Shown here: piece after piece, positions 1 through 5,886 of the stretch | How positions within the stretch are numbered: the first letter of the stretch is position 1 | Layout: each line of letters begins with the position of its first letter | Assembly: GCF_016406085.1 (NCBI RefSeq) | Contig: NZ_JAEHFJ010000001.1 | Coordinates: 62,001 to 126,000, forward strand | DNA: 64,000 bases | Direction of reading: 5' to 3' | From: Aureibaculum flavum | GTDB lineage: Bacteria > Bacteroidota > Bacteroidia > Flavobacteriales > Flavobacteriaceae | Notes under the pieces: model-generated | Told to the model about the DNA's origin: nothing | The model's database searches: none | What the model saw: only the letters and a program-made list of their open reading frames with translations | Position numbers and translations under genes: made by a program

Positions 1-189
1 AGATTCAGAAATTGTTTTCTCTAAACCCATTGCTCTAAAGTCTTGGCCGTCATTCATCAATAAAACAGGAAAACGATCTTCAGAGCTCCTATAATTACCA
101 GGTGCCATCAAACGGAACTTAACCTTTCTGTCGAGATACTTAGAAAAAAAACTCCCATTCAAACTTATGTAATCTATACTAAAACCCAT
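1..189 (-). CDS. Putative esterase (alpha/beta hydrolase), N-terminal fragment cut by the window edge
   Basis: Only the first 63 codons are visible. The ATG is at 187-189 and the frame stays open to base 1, so the gene continues to the left. The segment PVLLMNDGQDF (residues 41-51) resembles the N-terminal strand and turn of PF00756 esterases (Fes, IroE, esterase D type). The catalytic Ser, Asp and His lie outside the window, so activity cannot be judged. The gene diverges from another alpha/beta hydrolase (329-1048) across 139 bases, so the two may share control and may both serve the ATP-grasp/amidoligase cluster to the right. It could equally be an unrelated acyl esterase. Confidence 0.6.
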   Translation of the reverse strand, partial: MGFSIDYISLNGSFFSKYLDRKVKFRLMAPGNYRSSEDRFPVLLMNDGQDFRAMGLEKTISES

Positions 190-328: not shown

Positions 329-1048
329 ATGGCTCAAGTACAACATACTCAATATTATTCAAACACATTAAATAGAAATATTAATCTTGAAGTAACGGGG
401 CATTGGGGACATCCTATTTTGATGTTTCCATCCTCTGGAGGAAAGTATACGCAAAACAATGATTTTGGCTTAAACGAATCCGTTATGCGATTTGTTGAAG
501 AAGGCAGAATAAAGCTTTATAATATAGAAACACTAGATATGTTAAGCTTTTATGCAGAAGATTTACCTACCGATGTAATCATTCATAATTATGAGTTATA
601 CATGCAATTTCTAAAAAATGAAATGATTCCGTATATACAAAATGAATGTAATACGCATAGAATAGCAGTTGCTGGTTGTAGTTTTGGAGGCTATCATGCG
701 GCAAACACAGCATTTCGATTTCCTGATTTAGTTTCTCATTTATTTTCGTTATCTGGTGTATTTAATATTAGAAATTTTACACCAAATTCAGACGACATGA
801 GAATTTATTACAACTGTCCTAATGAATTTATGGTCGATGAAGAATCATGGAAATACAACCACATGCAAATTGTTTTGAGCACATCTGATTGGGATAGTTG
901 CAAACCTAAAAACGAAAATATGGCAAGTGTTTTAGAGTCAAAAGGAATACCTTATTGGTATGATGAAAAAAAATGGATAGAACATGATTGGCCTTTGTGG
1001 AAAATGGTTTTTCCGGAATATGTAGAAAAGTATTTTCCACAATCTTAG
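329..1048 (+). CDS. Alpha/beta hydrolase (esterase-like)
   Basis: A 239-residue cytosolic protein with no signal peptide. The nucleophile elbow is GCSFGG with Ser118; Asp187 (in STSDWD) and His219 (in EHDW) are plausible partners, giving a complete triad. The N-terminal part (HPILMFPSSGG, about 28-38) fits the oxyanion region of esterase-type hydrolases (PF00756-like). The gene starts a plus-strand series with two ATP-grasp enzymes, a GCS2-like ligase and a glutamine amidotransferase, so it may hydrolyse an ester or amide intermediate of that pathway. This link is inferred from gene order. A candidate -7 box at 1109-1116 suggests the following genes also have their own promoter. Confidence 0.75.
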   Translation: MAQVQHTQYYSNTLNRNINLEVTGHWGHPILMFPSSGGKYTQNNDFGLNESVMRFVEEGRIKLYNIETLDMLSFYAEDLPTDVIIHNYELYMQFLKNEMIPYIQNECNTHRIAVAGCSFGGYHAANTAFRFPDLVSHLFSLSGVFNIRNFTPNSDDMRIYYNCPNEFMVDEESWKYNHMQIVLSTSDWDSCKPKNENMASVLESKGIPYWYDEKKWIEHDWPLWKMVFPEYVEKYFPQS

Positions 1049-1108
1049 AAAGCTTGACAATAAATAATTAAATAAATAAGATTACGAAGACTATTTTTAA
1101 TTAGAATT

Positions 1109-1116
1109 TACATTTG
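1109..1116 (+). promoter_or_regulatory. Candidate -7 promoter box (TACATTTG) for the ATP-grasp/amidoligase genes
   Basis: TACATTTG matches the Bacteroidota -7 consensus TAnnTTTG exactly and lies 62 bases before the ATG of the ATP-grasp gene. No TTG stands at the usual -33 spacing, so the promoter may be weak or regulated. Confidence 0.4.
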
Positions 1117-1177
1117 TAATACAGGTAAATTATGATTGAAAATTAATTAAATTATAAAATCAAAAAAATAAAATATT

Positions 1178-2500
1178 ATGGCAAAAAAAGTTGGAATATT
1201 ATTCGGAATGGAAGATACTTTTCCATGGGCATTCATTGACAGAGTTAATGAATTAGGAAAAGGTAAAGTAGTTGCTGAAGCAGTTATTATTGATAAAGTT
1301 CAGCAAGGTATAGATTATGGATATGATGTCATCATCGATAGAATATCGCAAGAAGTTCCTTTTTACCGTGCCTATTTAAAAAATGCATCATTAATGGGTA
1401 CAGCAGTAATAAACAATCCTTTTTGGTGGAGTGCTGATGAGAAATTCTTTAATAATTGTTTATCACTTCAAATTGGAGTACCTGTACCAAAGACTATTTT
1501 ATTACCCTCTAATGCTAGACCTGATGATACTACTGACAAGTCTTTTAGAAATTTAAAAGCTCCTTTAGATTGGGATTATATTTTTAATTATATTGGTTTC
1601 CCTGCCTATATGAAACCTCATTCTGGAGGTGGATGGAAAAGTGTTTATCGTGTTGAAAATGCAGATGATTTATTTGAAAAACATGGTGAGACGGAACAAT
1701 TGGTAATGATGCTTCAAGAAGAAATTGTATTTGAAGATTACTATCGCGTGTATTGTTTAGGGCAAAAACATGTGCATATTATGCCTTACGAGCCTAGAAA
1801 CGAACCTCATTTACGTTATGTTACCGAACCAAAAACAAAAGGTGAAGAGCACAAGAAGTTAATGAAAACTATTCATGATTATACCATTAAACTAAATGAA
1901 GCCTTAGGTTACGATTTCAATACTGTTGAGTTCGCCATTAGAAATGGAGTTCCTTATGCCATAGATTTTTGCAATCCTGCACCAGATGCAGATATTAATT
2001 CTGTGGGACAAACTAATTTTGATTGGATTGTAGAACATTCTGCTCAATTAGCCGTTGAAAAAGCACTTGCACACAAAGGAAAACAAAATAATACTTCTTG
2101 GGGTACTTTTTTAACGAACGCCATTACACCATTAAAACCAAAGGTTAAAAAATCTAAATTAAAAACAGCAAATCAGATTAAAAAATCTGTAATTAAAAAA
2201 GAAGTAACTGCAGCTGCAAAAAAAGTAAAAAAGGTTTCGGCAAAAAAAACTACACCTAAAAAAGTTGTGAAGCCAGCTCCAAAAGTTGATGCAAAACCAA
2301 AAGTTGTGGTAAAGCCAAAAGCAGCAGCTAAAAAAACAACTGTGGCCAAACCTAAAGCAATCACTAAACCAAAAGTTACTGAGAAGCCAAAGTTAGCAGT
2401 TAAAAAAACAACTGTAGCTAAACCTAAAGCGGTGACTGAACCGAAAGAAACGGTTAAAAAAGCAGTGACTAAACCTAAAATAAAGCCTAAGAAAAAATAG
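1178..2500 (+). CDS. ATP-grasp ligase with a C-terminal lysine-rich, histone-H1-like tail
   Basis: A 440-residue protein in two parts. Residues 1-310 look like a RimK/D-Ala-D-Ala-ligase-type ATP-grasp enzyme: Lys146 in AYMKPHSGGG (nucleotide-binding lysine and glycine-rich loop), Glu181/182 (adenine-side carboxylates), Glu251 in NTVEFAI, and Asp263/Asn266 in AIDFCNPAPD (Mg-binding). Such enzymes join a carboxylate to an amine through an acyl phosphate. Residues from about 318 are almost only Lys, Pro, Ala, Thr and Val with an imperfect 24-residue repeat (KKTTVAKPKA twice), like bacterial H1-like tails. It is the first of four ligase/amidotransferase genes; the next starts 33 bases downstream. 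The substrate is unknown. The tail may bind nucleic acid or polyanions, or be a modification target; both are speculation. Confidence 0.75.
   Translation: MAKKVGILFGMEDTFPWAFIDRVNELGKGKVVAEAVIIDKVQQGIDYGYDVIIDRISQEVPFYRAYLKNASLMGTAVINNPFWWSADEKFFNNCLSLQIGVPVPKTILLPSNARPDDTTDKSFRNLKAPLDWDYIFNYIGFPAYMKPHSGGGWKSVYRVENADDLFEKHGETEQLVMMLQEEIVFEDYYRVYCLGQKHVHIMPYEPRNEPHLRYVTEPKTKGEEHKKLMKTIHDYTIKLNEALGYDFNTVEFAIRNGVPYAIDFCNPAPDADINSVGQTNFDWIVEHSAQLAVEKALAHKGKQNNTSWGTFLTNAITPLKPKVKKSKLKTANQIKKSVIKKEVTAAAKKVKKVSAKKTTPKKVVKPAPKVDAKPKVVVKPKAAAKKTTVAKPKAITKPKVTEKPKLAVKKTTVAKPKAVTEPKETVKKAVTKPKIKPKKK
2329..2470 (+). repeat. Imperfect 72-base tandem repeat coding the lysine-rich tail
   Basis: A run of seven A followed by CAACTG recurs at 2330 and 2402, a 72-base (24-codon) period. 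The two units both code KKTTVAKPKA and differ mainly at synonymous or conservative sites. A third, shorter unit (VKKAVTKPK) follows. Such tracts expand and contract by slippage, so tail length may vary between strains. Confidence 0.6.
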
Positions 2501-2533
2501 AAATTAATTAATAATTAATCCATAACCACAGAT

Positions 2534-3631
2534 ATGCATAAATTCACCCTTGGAATAGAAGAAGAATTTCAAATTCTTGATGGCGATACTTTAAAATTAC
2601 GCTCCCATATGTCTAAAATTTTAGAAGGTGGAAAAGTGCTATTAAAGGAACGTATTAAAGAAGAAATGCACCAATCTGTGGTGGAAATGGGTACAAATGT
2701 TTGTGAAAATATTCAAGAAGCTAGAGACGAAGTTTCGTATTTACGCCAGCAGGTTATTGATTTGGCAGCAAAAGAAGGACTGAAAGTAGCAGCGGCAGGT
2801 ACGCATCCCATCTCAAATTGGAGTGAACAATTAATTACGAACAATCCTCGATATGATGAATTGATTGCTGAAATGAAAGATGTGGCTCGCTCCAATCTAA
2901 TTTTTGGTATGCATGTTCATGTGGGTATTCCTAATCGTGAAGAAGGTTTACATATTATGAATGTGGCTCGGTATTTTTTACCGCATTTATATGCATTATC
3001 TACCAATTCTCCATTTTGGGAAGCCAGAGAAACAGGTTTTAAATCCTTTCGCTCTAAAATATTTGATAAATTTCCAAGAACAGGAATTCCACCTTATTTT
3101 TCTAGTGTTGCTGAGTATGATAAATTTGTAGATATTTTAGTTAAAACACATTGTATAGATAATGGCAAGAAAATTTGGTGGGATATTCGTTTACATCCCT
3201 TCTACCCAACAGTAGAATTTAGGGTTTGTGATATGATGATGACGGTTGATGAAGTAACCTGTATTGCTGCTATTATGCAATGTATTATAGCAAAACTGAG
3301 TAAACTACATTCAAAAAATCAAAGTTTTAGATCATATAGACGTATTTTAATTAATGAAAATAAATGGCGTGCAGCCCGTTGGGGTATAGAAGCTAAGCTT
3401 ATTGATTTTGGTAAAGAAGAAGAAGTACCATTTGCCATATTAATACAAGAATTACTAGAATTTATTGATGATGTGGTTGATGATCTCGGATGCCGGACAG
3501 AAGTAAATTATGTTTATCAAATGCTAGAACAAGGTTCGGGTGCTGATAGACAGCTAAAAGTCTTTGAAGAAACAGGCGATTTAAAAGAAGTTGTTAAATA
3601 TATTGTAGAACAAACGGCAAAAGGTTTATAG
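2534..3631 (+). CDS. Carboxylate-amine ligase, GCS2/YbdK family (COG2170)
   Basis: A 365-residue protein with the family hallmarks: the N-terminal GIEEEFQ motif (Glu9-11, metal and ATP site) and GMHVHVG at 125-131. This family is related to glutamate-cysteine ligase; characterised relatives ligate amino groups to carboxylates with ATP. The length is usual for YbdK proteins. It follows the ATP-grasp gene by 33 bases and precedes the amidotransferase gene by 175 bases, on the same strand. In this setting it probably adds an amino acid or amine to a small acid rather than making glutathione, since no gshB-like partner is evident. The family call is firm; the substrate is not known. Confidence 0.88.
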   Translation: MHKFTLGIEEEFQILDGDTLKLRSHMSKILEGGKVLLKERIKEEMHQSVVEMGTNVCENIQEARDEVSYLRQQVIDLAAKEGLKVAAAGTHPISNWSEQLITNNPRYDELIAEMKDVARSNLIFGMHVHVGIPNREEGLHIMNVARYFLPHLYALSTNSPFWEARETGFKSFRSKIFDKFPRTGIPPYFSSVAEYDKFVDILVKTHCIDNGKKIWWDIRLHPFYPTVEFRVCDMMMTVDEVTCIAAIMQCIIAKLSKLHSKNQSFRSYRRILINENKWRAARWGIEAKLIDFGKEEEVPFAILIQELLEFIDDVVDDLGCRTEVNYVYQMLEQGSGADRQLKVFEETGDLKEVVKYIVEQTAKGL

Positions 3632-3806
3632 AAGCGTAATTTTGCATGCAACAAACAGTTCAACGTATATTAAAGCTTATTTGAAAAGCTAAAAATTTTA
3701 GCAAATGCAATAAAGTTTGAATCTAATACGTATTAGAACTTAGTTTTTAATCGAATCGAAAACAATCAAAAAATTTACGGACTGTTTTTAAATTTAAAGA
3801 AGAAGA

Positions 3807-4643
3807 ATGCGGAGTACTTATAAAATTGCAATTTTAGATATGAATGAAGGTGTACCAAATGAAGGTATGCGTTGTATAAAAATGTTGGTCGGTCAGTTTT
3901 TGGCTCAAGAAGGTATTAAGGGTAATTATGATATTTTTGAAGTAAGAGTTAAGGGAGAAATTCCGAAAATAGATAAATATGATATTTACATATCTTCAGG
4001 CGGTCCTGGTTCTCCAAAATTAACGGGCTCGCAATGGGAAACGGATTATTTTAATTTAATTGATTCAATTTTAAGTCAAAATCTATTCAAGCATCAAAAG
4101 AAACATCTTTTTTTAATCTGCCACTCTTTTCAATTAGCATGTTTACATTGGGATATTGCTAAAGTAACTAAACGAAGATCTACTTCTTTTGGAATACTGC
4201 CTATCCATAAAACAGAAAGTGGATTTAATGAACCTCTTTTTGAAGGTTTAGAAGATCCCTTTTTCGCTGTAGACTCCAGAGACTATCAAGTTGTGATGCC
4301 GAAAGAATGGAAATTGAATAGTTTAGAAGGTAATATTCTTTGTAGAGAAAAAATAAGACCAGATGTACCTTTAGAAAGAGCAGTAATGGCTATCCGATTT
4401 ACCAAGGAAATTTTTGGAACACAGTTTCATCCAGAAGCTGATGCTGAAGGAATGACACGTTATTTTCAACAAGAAGAAAAACGGGCGTTGGTAATCAAAA
4501 AATATGGTAAAAAGAAATACCTGGGTATGATAGATCAGTTAAACGATGATGATAAAATTTTAAGAACAAACAGTATTATTATTCCTCGTTTTTTAAAAAT
4601 GGCAGCTGAAAAAATTAAACAATCAAAATTAGCATCTGTATGA
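3807..4643 (+). CDS. Class I glutamine amidotransferase-like protein
   Basis: A 278-residue protein with the GATase class I fold: an oxyanion-type loop SSGGPGSP (63-70), nucleophile Cys105 in LICHSFQLA, and the His208/Glu210 pair in GTQFHPEAD. The Cys loop reads ICHSFQ rather than the usual GICLGHQ, as in stand-alone GAT1 members that hydrolyse gamma-glutamyl amides (PuuD-like logic) instead of feeding ammonia to a fixed synthase. The C-terminal 60 residues extend beyond the core. Its stop overlaps the start of the next gene by four bases (ATGA), so translation of the two is probably coupled. It could remove a gamma-glutamyl group made by the upstream ligase, or supply ammonia; the sequence does not decide. 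Confidence 0.8.
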   Translation: MRSTYKIAILDMNEGVPNEGMRCIKMLVGQFLAQEGIKGNYDIFEVRVKGEIPKIDKYDIYISSGGPGSPKLTGSQWETDYFNLIDSILSQNLFKHQKKHLFLICHSFQLACLHWDIAKVTKRRSTSFGILPIHKTESGFNEPLFEGLEDPFFAVDSRDYQVVMPKEWKLNSLEGNILCREKIRPDVPLERAVMAIRFTKEIFGTQFHPEADAEGMTRYFQQEEKRALVIKKYGKKKYLGMIDQLNDDDKILRTNSIIIPRFLKMAAEKIKQSKLASV

Positions 4644-5839
4644 TAGCAAAAATTCGTAATGCTTTTAATGAAAATTTTAAAGATGAATACTATGATAACT
4701 TACAGCAAGATGTAAAAGAAACTTTTGGAGAAGAATGTGCTTTTCGTATTTCTGAAACTCCTGTTTTTATAGATGCATCACTAAAAAATAAGATTTTTGA
4801 TGCCTGTGATTCGATAATTGAACAGTTATGGGAAATTGATTTTGATGAAATTCGTCAAAAATTTATACCAAAATCATTACAATCTCCTAGTCCCATGGGT
4901 AAACCTCATTTTCTAGCTATAGATTTTGGACTTTGTGATGATGGAAATGGCAATATTGTACCACAGTTAATAGAATTACAAGCCTTCCCTACCCTGTTTT
5001 TTTATCAACCCTTTTTGGGTAAAGCTGTTTTAAAACACTACAAGAATTTTCCAAAAGGAGATTTTCATTATTTTTTCAGTAAGCTTAATGACAAAACCTA
5101 TATAGAGGAAGTTAGAAAAGTAATTTTAGGTGATGAGAAACCTGAGAATGTAATTTTAATGGAACTCTATCCTGAAAAACAAAAAACCAGAATAGATTTT
5201 TGGGCAACGAAACAAGCCTTGGGTATTGAAGTGGTGTGTATGACCCAAATTATTAAAGAAGGTAAAAAGCTATTTTATATTAAAGACGGAATAAAAACAC
5301 CCATTCATCGTATATATAATCGTGTAATTTTAGATGAATTATTGCAAATAAAAGACTTAAAAACCAACATAAATTTAAATGATGACCTTGATGTAGAATG
5401 GGTTACACATCCCGATTGGTTTTTTATGATTTCTAAGTGTATAATGCCATTATTAAAACATAAATACATACCAAAATCCTATTATTTAAATGACTATCCT
5501 ATTGATTTAAATCTCAATAAATATGTACTTAAACCCCTCTTTTCATTTGCTGGTAAAGGAATAAATCTTTACCCAACGCAAGAAACTATCAATGACATTA
5601 AGGATAAAGAGAATTATATATTACAACAAAAAGTAAACTACGCCTCCTTAGTGAAAACAAATACTGAAAAAAATTCTAAGGTAGAATTACGTATCCTTTA
5701 TATTTGGGACGAAGCAGCTAACAAATTAAAACCTGTTATCAATTTAACCCGAATGAGTAAAGGTGAGCTAATTAACGTTTCTCATTTAACTGAAGACACA
5801 TGGATTGGGTCTTCTATTAGTTTTTTCGAGAACACATAA
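4640..5839 (+). CDS. ATP-grasp-like ligase, apparently circularly permuted (glutathionylspermidine-synthase-like order)
   Basis: A 399-residue protein starting inside the stop of the amidotransferase gene. The order of motifs is unusual: an acidic segment (AIDFGLCDDGNG and IELQAFP, about 93-117, with Glu112) comes before the nucleotide-binding lysine segment YVLKPLFSFAGKG (Lys298), followed by ELRILY (Arg351) and NLTRMS (Asn368, Arg371). This resembles glutathionylspermidine synthase and related permuted ATP-grasp enzymes, where an RFDF...EYNADTP segment precedes the Lys. I infer an amide-bond-forming enzyme acting with its neighbours. It is the last gene of the run; a strong hairpin follows. 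The ATP-grasp fold is likely; the exact family is not recognised. Confidence 0.65.
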   Translation: MIAKIRNAFNENFKDEYYDNLQQDVKETFGEECAFRISETPVFIDASLKNKIFDACDSIIEQLWEIDFDEIRQKFIPKSLQSPSPMGKPHFLAIDFGLCDDGNGNIVPQLIELQAFPTLFFYQPFLGKAVLKHYKNFPKGDFHYFFSKLNDKTYIEEVRKVILGDEKPENVILMELYPEKQKTRIDFWATKQALGIEVVCMTQIIKEGKKLFYIKDGIKTPIHRIYNRVILDELLQIKDLKTNINLNDDLDVEWVTHPDWFFMISKCIMPLLKHKYIPKSYYLNDYPIDLNLNKYVLKPLFSFAGKGINLYPTQETINDIKDKENYILQQKVNYASLVKTNTEKNSKVELRILYIWDEAANKLKPVINLTRMSKGELINVSHLTEDTWIGSSISFFENT

Positions 5840-5855
5840 TAGACCTATATAAAAA

Positions 5856-5886
5856 AGAGTCAAGACAACCTTTTTGTCTTGACTCT
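5856..5886. terminator. Bidirectional intrinsic terminator between the amidoligase cluster and ssb
   Basis: A perfect 12-base stem (AGAGTCAAGACA and its complement) with a seven-base loop, flanked by an A-run on the left and T-rich sequence on the right. It lies between the convergent genes ending at 5839 and 5920 and can serve both strands. Confidence 0.85.

Follow-up and report, generated by a model that had tools for sequence, protein, structure and literature searches.

A conserved cluster of amide-bond ligases and hydrolases in Bacteroidota that may build and recycle a small glutathione-like pseudopeptide

What could be made, or unmade, by a run of plus-strand genes in which amide-bond ligases lie side by side with hydrolases? 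The question is raised by a locus at the start of the window, that is, the whole stretch of 64,000 nucleotides that was analysed. A preliminary description had placed five plus-strand genes here, with a 4-base overlap between the last two and a terminator behind them. All of these elements were recovered, the genes as ORFs from 329-1048 through 4640-5839, the overlap as ATGA at 4640-4643 (GAT/GRASP2), and the terminator as a stem of 13 pairs. The features are listed below.

1-189, minus strand: divergent esterase gene (PF00756), 5' part; 272 aa in full, remainder upstream (L002:9371-10189)
329-1048, plus strand: HYD (P0001), ORF of 239 aa with a PF00756 esterase match
1178-2500, plus strand: GRASP1 (P0002), ORF of 440 aa, ATP-grasp peptide-type ligase by predicted fold
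2132-2497, plus strand: Lys-rich low-complexity tail of GRASP1, 122 residues with 45 Lys
2534-3631, plus strand: GCS2 (P0003), ORF of 365 aa, YbdK-type carboxylate-amine ligase by profile
3807-4643, plus strand: GAT (P0004), ORF of 278 aa, class I glutamine-amidotransferase-like (PF00117)
4640-5839, plus strand: GRASP2 (P0005), ORF of 399 aa, permuted ATP-grasp of the eukaryotic-type glutathione synthetase/GspS/YgiC superfamily by predicted fold
5856-5886, reported on both strands: terminator-like stem-loop 3' of GRASP2

Inside the cluster there are intergenic gaps of 129 bases (1049-1177) and 175 bases (3632-3806), and since the latter is wide in this window GAT and GRASP2 may have a separate promoter. 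The divergent esterase continues for 630 further bases upstream of the window (PF00756, E 4.9e-25), and a homologue is found immediately upstream, also in divergent orientation, in 33 of the 76 examinable loci from the best 80 of 589. The five genes are real, but to call the cluster a five-gene one, as had been done, is too narrow, because this divergent sixth gene is present and because modules are exchanged between lineages.

The families that had been proposed for the hydrolase, the GCS2/YbdK protein and the class I GATase were borne out by profile matches above cut-off. HYD matched PF00756 with 39.1 bits (cut-off 22, E 9.7e-10), and its Ser118, His219, Asp189 and Asp212 are invariant in 17 sequences, the catalytic Asp being either Asp189 or Asp212. 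HYD is an esterase-fold alpha/beta hydrolase with the catalytic residues kept. GAT matched PF00117 with 30 bits (cut-off 22.8, E 5.1e-7); Cys105, His208 and Glu210 are invariant in 28 sequences, and hydrolases of the class I glutamine amidotransferase fold have the same kind of triad. Judged by its sequence, GAT is a class I glutamine-amidotransferase-like protein with a Cys-His-Glu triad. Among proteins of known structure, a single-sequence search found no relative of GAT at E <= 0.01, and its profile matches were weak. GCS2 gave 211 bits against PF04107 (cut-off 21, E 2.7e-62) and 546 bits against NCBIfam PRK13515, carboxylate-amine ligase (cut-off 371). The motif GIEEE at its residues 7-11, with Gly7 and Glu9-11 unchanged across 15 sequences, fits the GhExE signature that passages of PMC2588565 describe at the Mg-ATP site of GCS2/YbdK ligases. 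GCS2 can accordingly be classed from its profile and motif as a YbdK-type carboxylate-amine ligase, with ligation between glutamate and an amine as the predicted reaction.

Both ATP-grasp calls were upheld by predicted folds. GRASP1 reached no Pfam cut-off in the profile search and fell outside the R2K clade (R2K_2, 12.5 bits, cut-off 26.2). Its model (pLDDT 85.5) has an ATP-grasp fold of the Ddl/LysX/RimK type, with 469 PDB matches at E <= 1e-3, the best being Ddl and LysX/ArgX; among the 50 matches listed, all at 11-17% identity, Ddl, LysX/ArgX, RimK and graspetide ligases predominate. The Lys-rich tail of GRASP1 is not conserved but variable among relatives.

GRASP2 matched PF03738 (GSP_synth) weakly (E 3.7e-5), its 23.5 bits lying under the profile cut-off of 29.3 for membership of that Pfam family. 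Its model (pLDDT 90.2) folds like members of the glutathione synthetase/GspS/YgiC superfamily, and at E <= 1e-3 the PDB matches, 18 in all, fall within it without exception, among them glutathione synthetases, homoglutathione synthetases, Gss, YgiC and YjfC; the name permuted ATP-grasp therefore stands. The only solved sequence relative found was YgiC, with E 0.024 for the single sequence and 0.0022 for a profile. Two PF02955 (GSH-S_ATP) matches are present elsewhere in the same genome, on other contigs.

The distribution of the families was surveyed in a sample of 198 Bacteroidota genomes, with presence scored at E <= 1e-10 (E <= 1e-30 for the third ATP-grasp, GRASP3, and for CP_ATPgrasp_2, another family of permuted ATP-grasps; E <= 1e-20 for the M29 peptidase). 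GRASP1 was found in 72 genomes, GCS2 in 62, GRASP2 in 60, GAT in 50 and HYD in 81, the HYD count taking in paralogues. All five occurred together in 34 genomes, and within 8 kb in 16. GCS2 and GRASP2 were both present in 56 genomes, with GCS2 alone in 6 and GRASP2 alone in 4. GRASP1 is the hub of the system: 69 of its 72 genomes also had a permuted ATP-grasp ligase, and every one of the 42 genomes with GRASP3 had GRASP1. All 50 GAT genomes likewise carried a permuted ATP-grasp, which was GRASP2 in 39, CP_ATPgrasp_2 in 11, and both in none. Tests stratified within families gave z values of 4.8-7.2 over 5-11 informative families for GRASP1, GCS2, GRASP2, GAT and GRASP3, HYD being left out; genomes unlisted under other families were pooled in f16, which held no matches and lay outside the tests. 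The simple rule was broken by 5 of the 74 genomes with GRASP1 or GRASP2. Two of these (G154, G144) had GCS2 and GRASP2 without GRASP1, and in three (G007, G087, G160) GRASP1 was divergent, at 33-44% identity, and both families of permuted ATP-grasp were missing. Since four genomes of one family (f5) had GRASP1, GAT and GRASP2 without GCS2, GCS2 does not open the pathway in every case. GRASP2 occurred without GAT in 21 genomes, and M29 accounts for just 2 of these.

Gene order was followed in the best 80 of 589 confirmed loci, which we take from their titles to be from Bacteroidota and which, being the best matches, lean to close relatives. The simple ORF caller performed poorly in some loci (L051, L060, L070), and absences at those loci were not counted. 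All five genes were present in 69 of the 80, in one order and on one strand in 69 of 69, with median intergenic gaps of 7-46 bases. In the wider sample, linkage among the cluster genes is often lost: of the genomes with both partners, those with the two within 8 kb were 38 of 58 for GRASP1-GCS2, 34 of 56 for GCS2-GRASP2, 33 of 49 for GRASP1-GAT, 27 of 39 for GAT-GRASP2 and 34 of 70 for HYD-GRASP1. The optional extras of the cluster are GRASP3, M17 and M29 peptidases and an ArgD-like transaminase; an M17 aminopeptidase was a partner in 28 of the best 80 of 589 loci. At seven unlinked GRASP2 loci, the neighbour was Amidohydro_3 in two and an M16 peptidase in one, and in the other four the scanned neighbour or fusion was a symporter, aminotransferase, tRNA synthetase or SDR, not a hydrolase. 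An S10 carboxypeptidase adjoins GCS2 in the one unlinked GCS2 locus that was scanned likewise (L155).

Co-conservation in relatives, on which the preliminary description had staked its proposal, was found for both presence and linkage (198 genomes; best 80 of 589 loci), and the co-occurrence, the fixed order, and the nesting and displacement of components give good support to a single pathway in which amide-bond ligases and hydrolases act together. The families, their intact catalytic motifs, their co-occurrence and order, and the swap of permuted ATP-grasp families are established. None of the five cluster proteins matched a PADLOC model at E <= 0.001, and a role in anti-phage defence was rejected. 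A mobile or phage origin of GRASP1 and GRASP2 was set aside: tblastn gave no match of GRASP2 in plasmids or of GRASP1 in phages, and neither matched PHROGs.

We put at roughly one in two the probability that the cluster is a chromosomal operon whose enzymes build a small, soluble, glutathione-like pseudopeptide without ribosomes and also recycle it. GCS2 would ligate an amine to the gamma-carboxylate of glutamate or of a comparable acid. GRASP2 would then activate the free carboxylate of this product as an acyl phosphate and couple a second amine or amino acid, and the Ddl/LysX/RimK-like GRASP1 would form a further peptide bond. One of the linkages would be hydrolysed by GAT, through its Cys-His-Glu triad, and by the esterases, through Ser-His-Asp, either to remove a gamma-glutamyl or capping group or for turnover. 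In this scheme we infer all substrates, the order of the steps, the direction of the GAT reaction, co-transcription and the small-molecule product. The partners that cleave amide or peptide bonds (M17, M29, Amidohydro_3, M16 and S10) speak for it; the frequent loss of linkage, the five exceptional genomes, the f5 genomes without GCS2, the 21 genomes with GRASP2 and no GAT, the four unlinked GRASP2 loci with other neighbours and the wide gap before GAT speak against it. A wider version is put forward more tentatively, namely that a modular family of glutathione-like metabolites exists in Bacteroidota beside bacillithiol, with a core of GRASP1 and esterase, exchangeable ligase modules, and amide or peptide hydrolases. 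The modules would be GCS2 plus GRASP2, or CP_ATPgrasp_2 as a substitute for GRASP2, optionally joined by the third ATP-grasp, and a conserved cycle of ligases and hydrolases would assemble and dismantle related products.

The preliminary description had left the choice between a metabolite and a protein tag, and we favour the former, chiefly on two grounds: the gaps leave no room for a small precursor or tag gene, and GCS2 together with a glutathione-synthetase fold would mirror two successive steps of the glutathione type. The gaps 1049-1177 and 3632-3806 hold no plus-strand ORF of at least 30 aa for a graspetide precursor, other RiPP or Pup-like tag, and median gaps are 7-46 bases in the 69 five-gene loci (from the best 80 of 589); a graspetide (RiPP) system or Pup-like tag was rejected. 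It is nevertheless conceivable, if unlikely, that GRASP1, whose fold neighbours LysX/ArgX and RimK have protein carriers or proteins as substrates, attaches amino acids to a protein and that the hydrolases take this tag off. The Lys-rich tail, at least 20 aa long in 33 of 65 scored loci from the best 80 of 589, agrees with this, but it measures just 5-18 aa in 26 of the 65. Characterised GCS2 and glutathione-synthetase-fold enzymes, moreover, act mostly on small molecules, which counts against a protein substrate; the GCS2 relative PafA (PMC2588565) is an exception. Amidation is a rather doubtful alternative, in which the permuted ATP-grasp would form a terminal primary amide with ammonia that GAT releases from glutamine. 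It would account for the presence of a permuted ATP-grasp in each GAT genome (39 + 11 of 50, never both families) and for the median gap of 7 bases between the neighbours GAT and GRASP2 in 69 loci from the best 80 of 589. Against it are the 21 genomes with GRASP2 and no GAT, the 12 of 39 genomes in which the two are unlinked, and an M29 metallopeptidase that occupies the GAT position in two genomes without GAT and suggests hydrolysis. We also know of no ammonia partner for the ATP-grasp fold of GRASP2, which weighs the same way.

The place of GRASP2 beside YgiC raises a further alternative, that it is a peptide-polyamine ligase with GAT or the esterase as the matching amidase, giving a reversible conjugate like glutathionylspermidine. 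YgiC is its only solved sequence relative found, and YgiC, YjfC and Gss are among its fold matches; YgiC and YjfC are named peptidylpolyamine synthetases in a passage of PMC12568646, and YgiC is a 'peptide--spermidine ligase' in E. coli annotation. In a MAFFT alignment Glu330, Lys498 and Lys533 of Gss are kept in 33 of 33 GRASP2 sequences, which also speaks for a polyamine ligase, and Asn332 is replaced by Gln. However, of Glu391 and Ser337, given as spermidine-site residues of Gss in a passage of PMC6272389, the former is opposite Lys in 27 of 33 GRASP2 sequences and the latter opposite Leu in 29 of 33, in a region of low identity where the alignment is not final. Arg316 and Asp318 are changed as well, standing opposite Asp95 and Gly97 of GRASP2, whereas YgiC has the same residues as Gss at positions 316 (Arg), 318 (Asp) and 391 (Glu). 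This recheck of the Gss site residues led us to rate the polyamine ligase lower, as distinctly unlikely, and glutathione and homoglutathione synthetases fit the GRASP2 fold equally well. That the cluster supplies the cell's main thiol in place of glutathione, as GCS2 plus a glutathione-synthetase fold might suggest, is very improbable, since the bacillithiol family BshC is present in 196 of 198 genomes, the window's own included, whether the cluster is present or absent. A chance neighbourhood of unrelated genes would fit the gaps of 129 and 175 bases, but is next to impossible given the co-occurrence, the fixed order and the displacement of components.

The fixed operon, the displacement of permuted ATP-grasps and the hydrolase partners give a clear prediction of a conserved small molecule, and 72 of the 198 Bacteroidota sampled, more than one third, carry the hub ligase. 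If found, the product would point to the functions of YbdK-type GCS2 proteins, of bacterial glutathione-synthetase-fold enzymes, and of an ATP-grasp family that lies below every Pfam cut-off. Among the open-licence papers listed by literature searches, we recognised none as about this cluster, and to our knowledge no product has been assigned to the hub-ligase arrangement.

Among known systems, Iyer et al. 2009 (Mol Biosyst 5:1636) reportedly found ATP-grasp and glutamine-synthetase-like ligases clustered with peptidases and predicted them to make peptides; these amidoligase neighbourhoods resemble the cluster in placing ligases with peptidases. A published pairing of a ligase with a GATase-fold peptidase, proposed for glutathione-type peptide metabolism, is also similar, yet the ligase family there, similar in size to GCS2, is a separate one, and the passage mentions no ATP-grasp. 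The predicted fold of GRASP1 is shared by LysX/ArgX, Ddl, RimK and the graspetide ATP-grasps. Unlike the LysX/ArgX and graspetide systems, the cluster has no carrier or precursor-peptide gene in its gaps, and GRASP1 shows 11-17% identity in the 50 matches listed. Glutathione synthesis likewise combines a gamma-glutamyl ligase with a eukaryotic-type glutathione synthetase, whose fold GRASP2 has, and E. coli Gss, according to passages of PMC6272389, pairs a ligase with an amidase, as the cluster may do. The cluster differs from glutathione synthesis, Gss, YgiC and YjfC in that its GCS2 is YbdK-type, its GRASP2 scores under the GSP_synth cut-off and its host has BshC, and from Gss in that GRASP2 lacks Arg316, Asp318, Ser337 and Glu391 in a low-identity alignment. 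To the scheme of glutathione synthesis and Gss, the cluster adds a second ATP-grasp and a GATase.

The proposed gene cluster is genuine and strongly co-conserved, and it proved to be larger and more modular than stated in the preliminary description. The five plus-strand open reading frames lie exactly where they had been placed (window positions 329-5839). The reported 4-base overlap of the last two genes was confirmed (ATGA), and a stem-loop matching the suggested terminator follows the last gene. The features are:

329-5839, plus strand, the five cluster genes, in order:
HYD (P0001), plus strand, PF00756 esterase by family scan
GRASP1 (P0002), plus strand, ATP-grasp enzyme with no Pfam family above cut-off
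GCS2 (P0003), plus strand, GCS2/YbdK by family scan
GAT (P0004), plus strand, class I GATase by family scan
GRASP2 (P0005), plus strand, sub-threshold GSP_synth match
Start at 189, continuing upstream of the window, minus strand, divergent PF00756 esterase by family scan

GRASP1 ends in a C-terminal tail (window 2132-2497) of 122 residues, 45 of them Lys. Among relatives scored from the best 80 of 589 confirmed loci, 33/65 have a tail of at least 20 residues with at least 18% Lys, and 26/65 one of only 5-18 residues. Other contigs of the window's genome carry two GSH-S_ATP (PF02955) matches, at G000:C27:115597-116061 and G000:C20:139920-140375.

The co-conservation called for in the preliminary description was assessed in 198 Bacteroidota genomes with each protein as query (E <= 1e-10). 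Matches were found in 72 genomes for GRASP1, 60 for GRASP2, 62 for GCS2, 50 for GAT and 81 for HYD; 34 genomes hold all five, 16 of them within 8 kb. GCS2 and GRASP2 occur together in 56 genomes, GCS2 without GRASP2 in 6 and GRASP2 without GCS2 in 4. Linkage within 8 kb, in genomes with both genes, was 38/58 for GRASP1-GCS2, 34/56 for GCS2-GRASP2, 33/49 for GRASP1-GAT, 27/39 for GAT-GRASP2 and 34/70 for HYD-GRASP1; presence is thus kept while linkage is often lost. Since related genomes share genes, co-occurrence was also tested within families for GRASP1, GRASP2, GCS2, GAT and the optional third ATP-grasp, GRASP3, and every pair gave z values of 4.8 to 7.2 from 5 to 11 informative families. 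In family f15 each of these genes is present in 7/15 genomes; in the window's own family GRASP1 is present in 4/19, and GRASP2, GCS2 and GAT in 5/19 each.

Gene order was examined in named genomes, using the best 80 of 589 confirmed loci, a set that leans to close relatives; the closest listed is Aureibaculum luteum SM1352 (99% with the GRASP1 query; L073). All five genes are present in 69 of these 80 loci, in all 69 on one strand in the order HYD-GRASP1-GCS2-GAT-GRASP2, with median gaps of 46, 30, 43 and 7 bases. Six of the 11 incomplete loci are short or at contig ends (L080, L111, L115, L116, L124, L135), and in L111 a different gene already lies downstream of GCS2. GRASP2 was not found at L092, nor GCS2 at L112; GAT and GRASP2 are absent from L113 and L114 (Runella), and L146 holds only HYD and GRASP1, plus the divergent esterase. 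The cluster in genome G154 (L057) looks partly lost; GCS2-GAT-GRASP2 are retained, HYD and GRASP1 have no match, and the gene families flanking the full cluster in G142 (L043) come directly after. An apparent insertion, a DUF1016/YhcG PDDEXK nuclease-like gene, lies between GAT and GRASP2 at L118:13088-13960, and a second alpha/beta hydrolase (Abhydrolase_1/S33 kind) between HYD and GRASP1 at L040:9074-10033 and, in a Cyclobacteriaceae MAG, L132:9065-9988.

DISPLACEMENT GAT is always accompanied by one of two permuted ATP-grasps: 39/50 GAT genomes have GRASP2 and 11/50 instead CP_ATPgrasp_2 (PF14403, assigned by scan of the L058 protein), none both and none neither. In 11/11 genomes the CP_ATPgrasp_2 gene sits between GRASP1 and GAT. 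When GRASP2 and the L058 protein were compared as profiles, no confident match emerged (probability 2.6%), though both show features of the ATP-grasp fold family. Among the 72 GRASP1 genomes, 57 have GRASP2 alone, 11 CP_ATPgrasp_2 alone, one both (G137, where the match has 37% identity and lies elsewhere) and three neither, these last having divergent GRASP1 homologues (33, 34 and 44% identity). Fisher's test for the two families gave p 1.4e-9, but the 11 genomes fall in only five families (f17, f20, f24, f28, f30).

Further modules are optional. GRASP3 occurs in 42 of the 198 genomes, all within the GRASP1 set, and is absent from the window's genome. An M17 leucyl aminopeptidase homologue (query from L081, 60% identical to the family-scanned L035 protein) is found in 28 of the best 80 of 589 loci, in 27 of these within two ORFs of GRASP3, and an ArgD-like class III aminotransferase, scoring below the NCBIfam argD cut-off, directly follows GRASP2 in 14 of the 80. 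In two genomes without GAT an M29 peptidase occupies its position; no further member of this subfamily was found in the 198 genomes, the next matches being at most 31% identical.

The GRASP1 AlphaFold2 model (pLDDT 85.5) is closest to the PDB folds of Ddl, LysX/ArgX, RimK and graspetide ligases. The GRASP2 model (pLDDT 90.2) has 18 PDB fold matches at E <= 1e-3, comprising glutathione/homoglutathione synthetases, nematode glutathione-synthetase-like effectors, putative GspS, YgiC, YjfC and the E. coli glutathionylspermidine synthetase/amidase Gss. In an alignment that includes YgiC and Gss, the Gss residues Glu330, Lys498 and Lys533 are present in each of the 33 GRASP2 sequences, which have Gln in place of Asn332; at low alignment identity, Arg316 is Asp (33/33), Asp318 Gly or Ala, Ser337 Leu (29/33) and Glu391 Lys (27/33), whereas YgiC has the same residues as Gss at 316, 318 and 391. 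As far as such a low-identity alignment can tell, this pattern suggests a conserved ATP side and an acceptor side unlike that of the spermidine enzymes. Invariant residues are Cys105, His208 and Glu210 in GAT (28 sequences), Ser118, His219, Asp189 and Asp212 in HYD (17) and Gly7 and Glu9-11 in GCS2 (15).

A GATase fold can either supply ammonia or hydrolyse gamma-glutamyl amides. Ammonia transfer by GAT fits its strict dependence on a permuted ATP-grasp (50/50 genomes), but because an M29 peptidase replaces GAT in two genomes, and because peptidases or amidases are also found among the other partners, we favour hydrolysis. Among seven unlinked GRASP2 loci, two have an Amidohydro_3 neighbour and one an M16 peptidase; in the remaining four, GRASP2 is either fused to a symporter or lies beside an aminotransferase, a tRNA synthetase or an SDR. 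Both genomes with an Amidohydro_3 gene beside GRASP2 (L159:4931-6388 and L161:2957-4426, the latter overlapping GRASP2 by 4 bases) are in family f23. A fusion of GRASP2 to a sodium:solute symporter (SSF) at its N-terminus, in a single 867-aa frame, was seen once (L153:2637-5240).

Among the open-licence papers listed in literature searches, none was recognised as dealing with this cluster. A role of its product as main thiol is disfavoured, since the bacillithiol gene family BshC is present in 196/198 genomes. The folds of GCS2 and GRASP2 are those of two successive enzymes in glutathione-type synthesis and, given the close pairing of the two genes, we infer a gamma-glutamyl-X pathway in which GCS2 would make gamma-glutamyl-X, GRASP2 would extend it and GRASP1 would add a further bond. 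A precedent in which a GCS2-like ligase is paired with a thiol peptidase resembling a GATase is published in PMC2588565, and the cluster is a variant of the known amidoligase-peptidase kind of neighbourhood.
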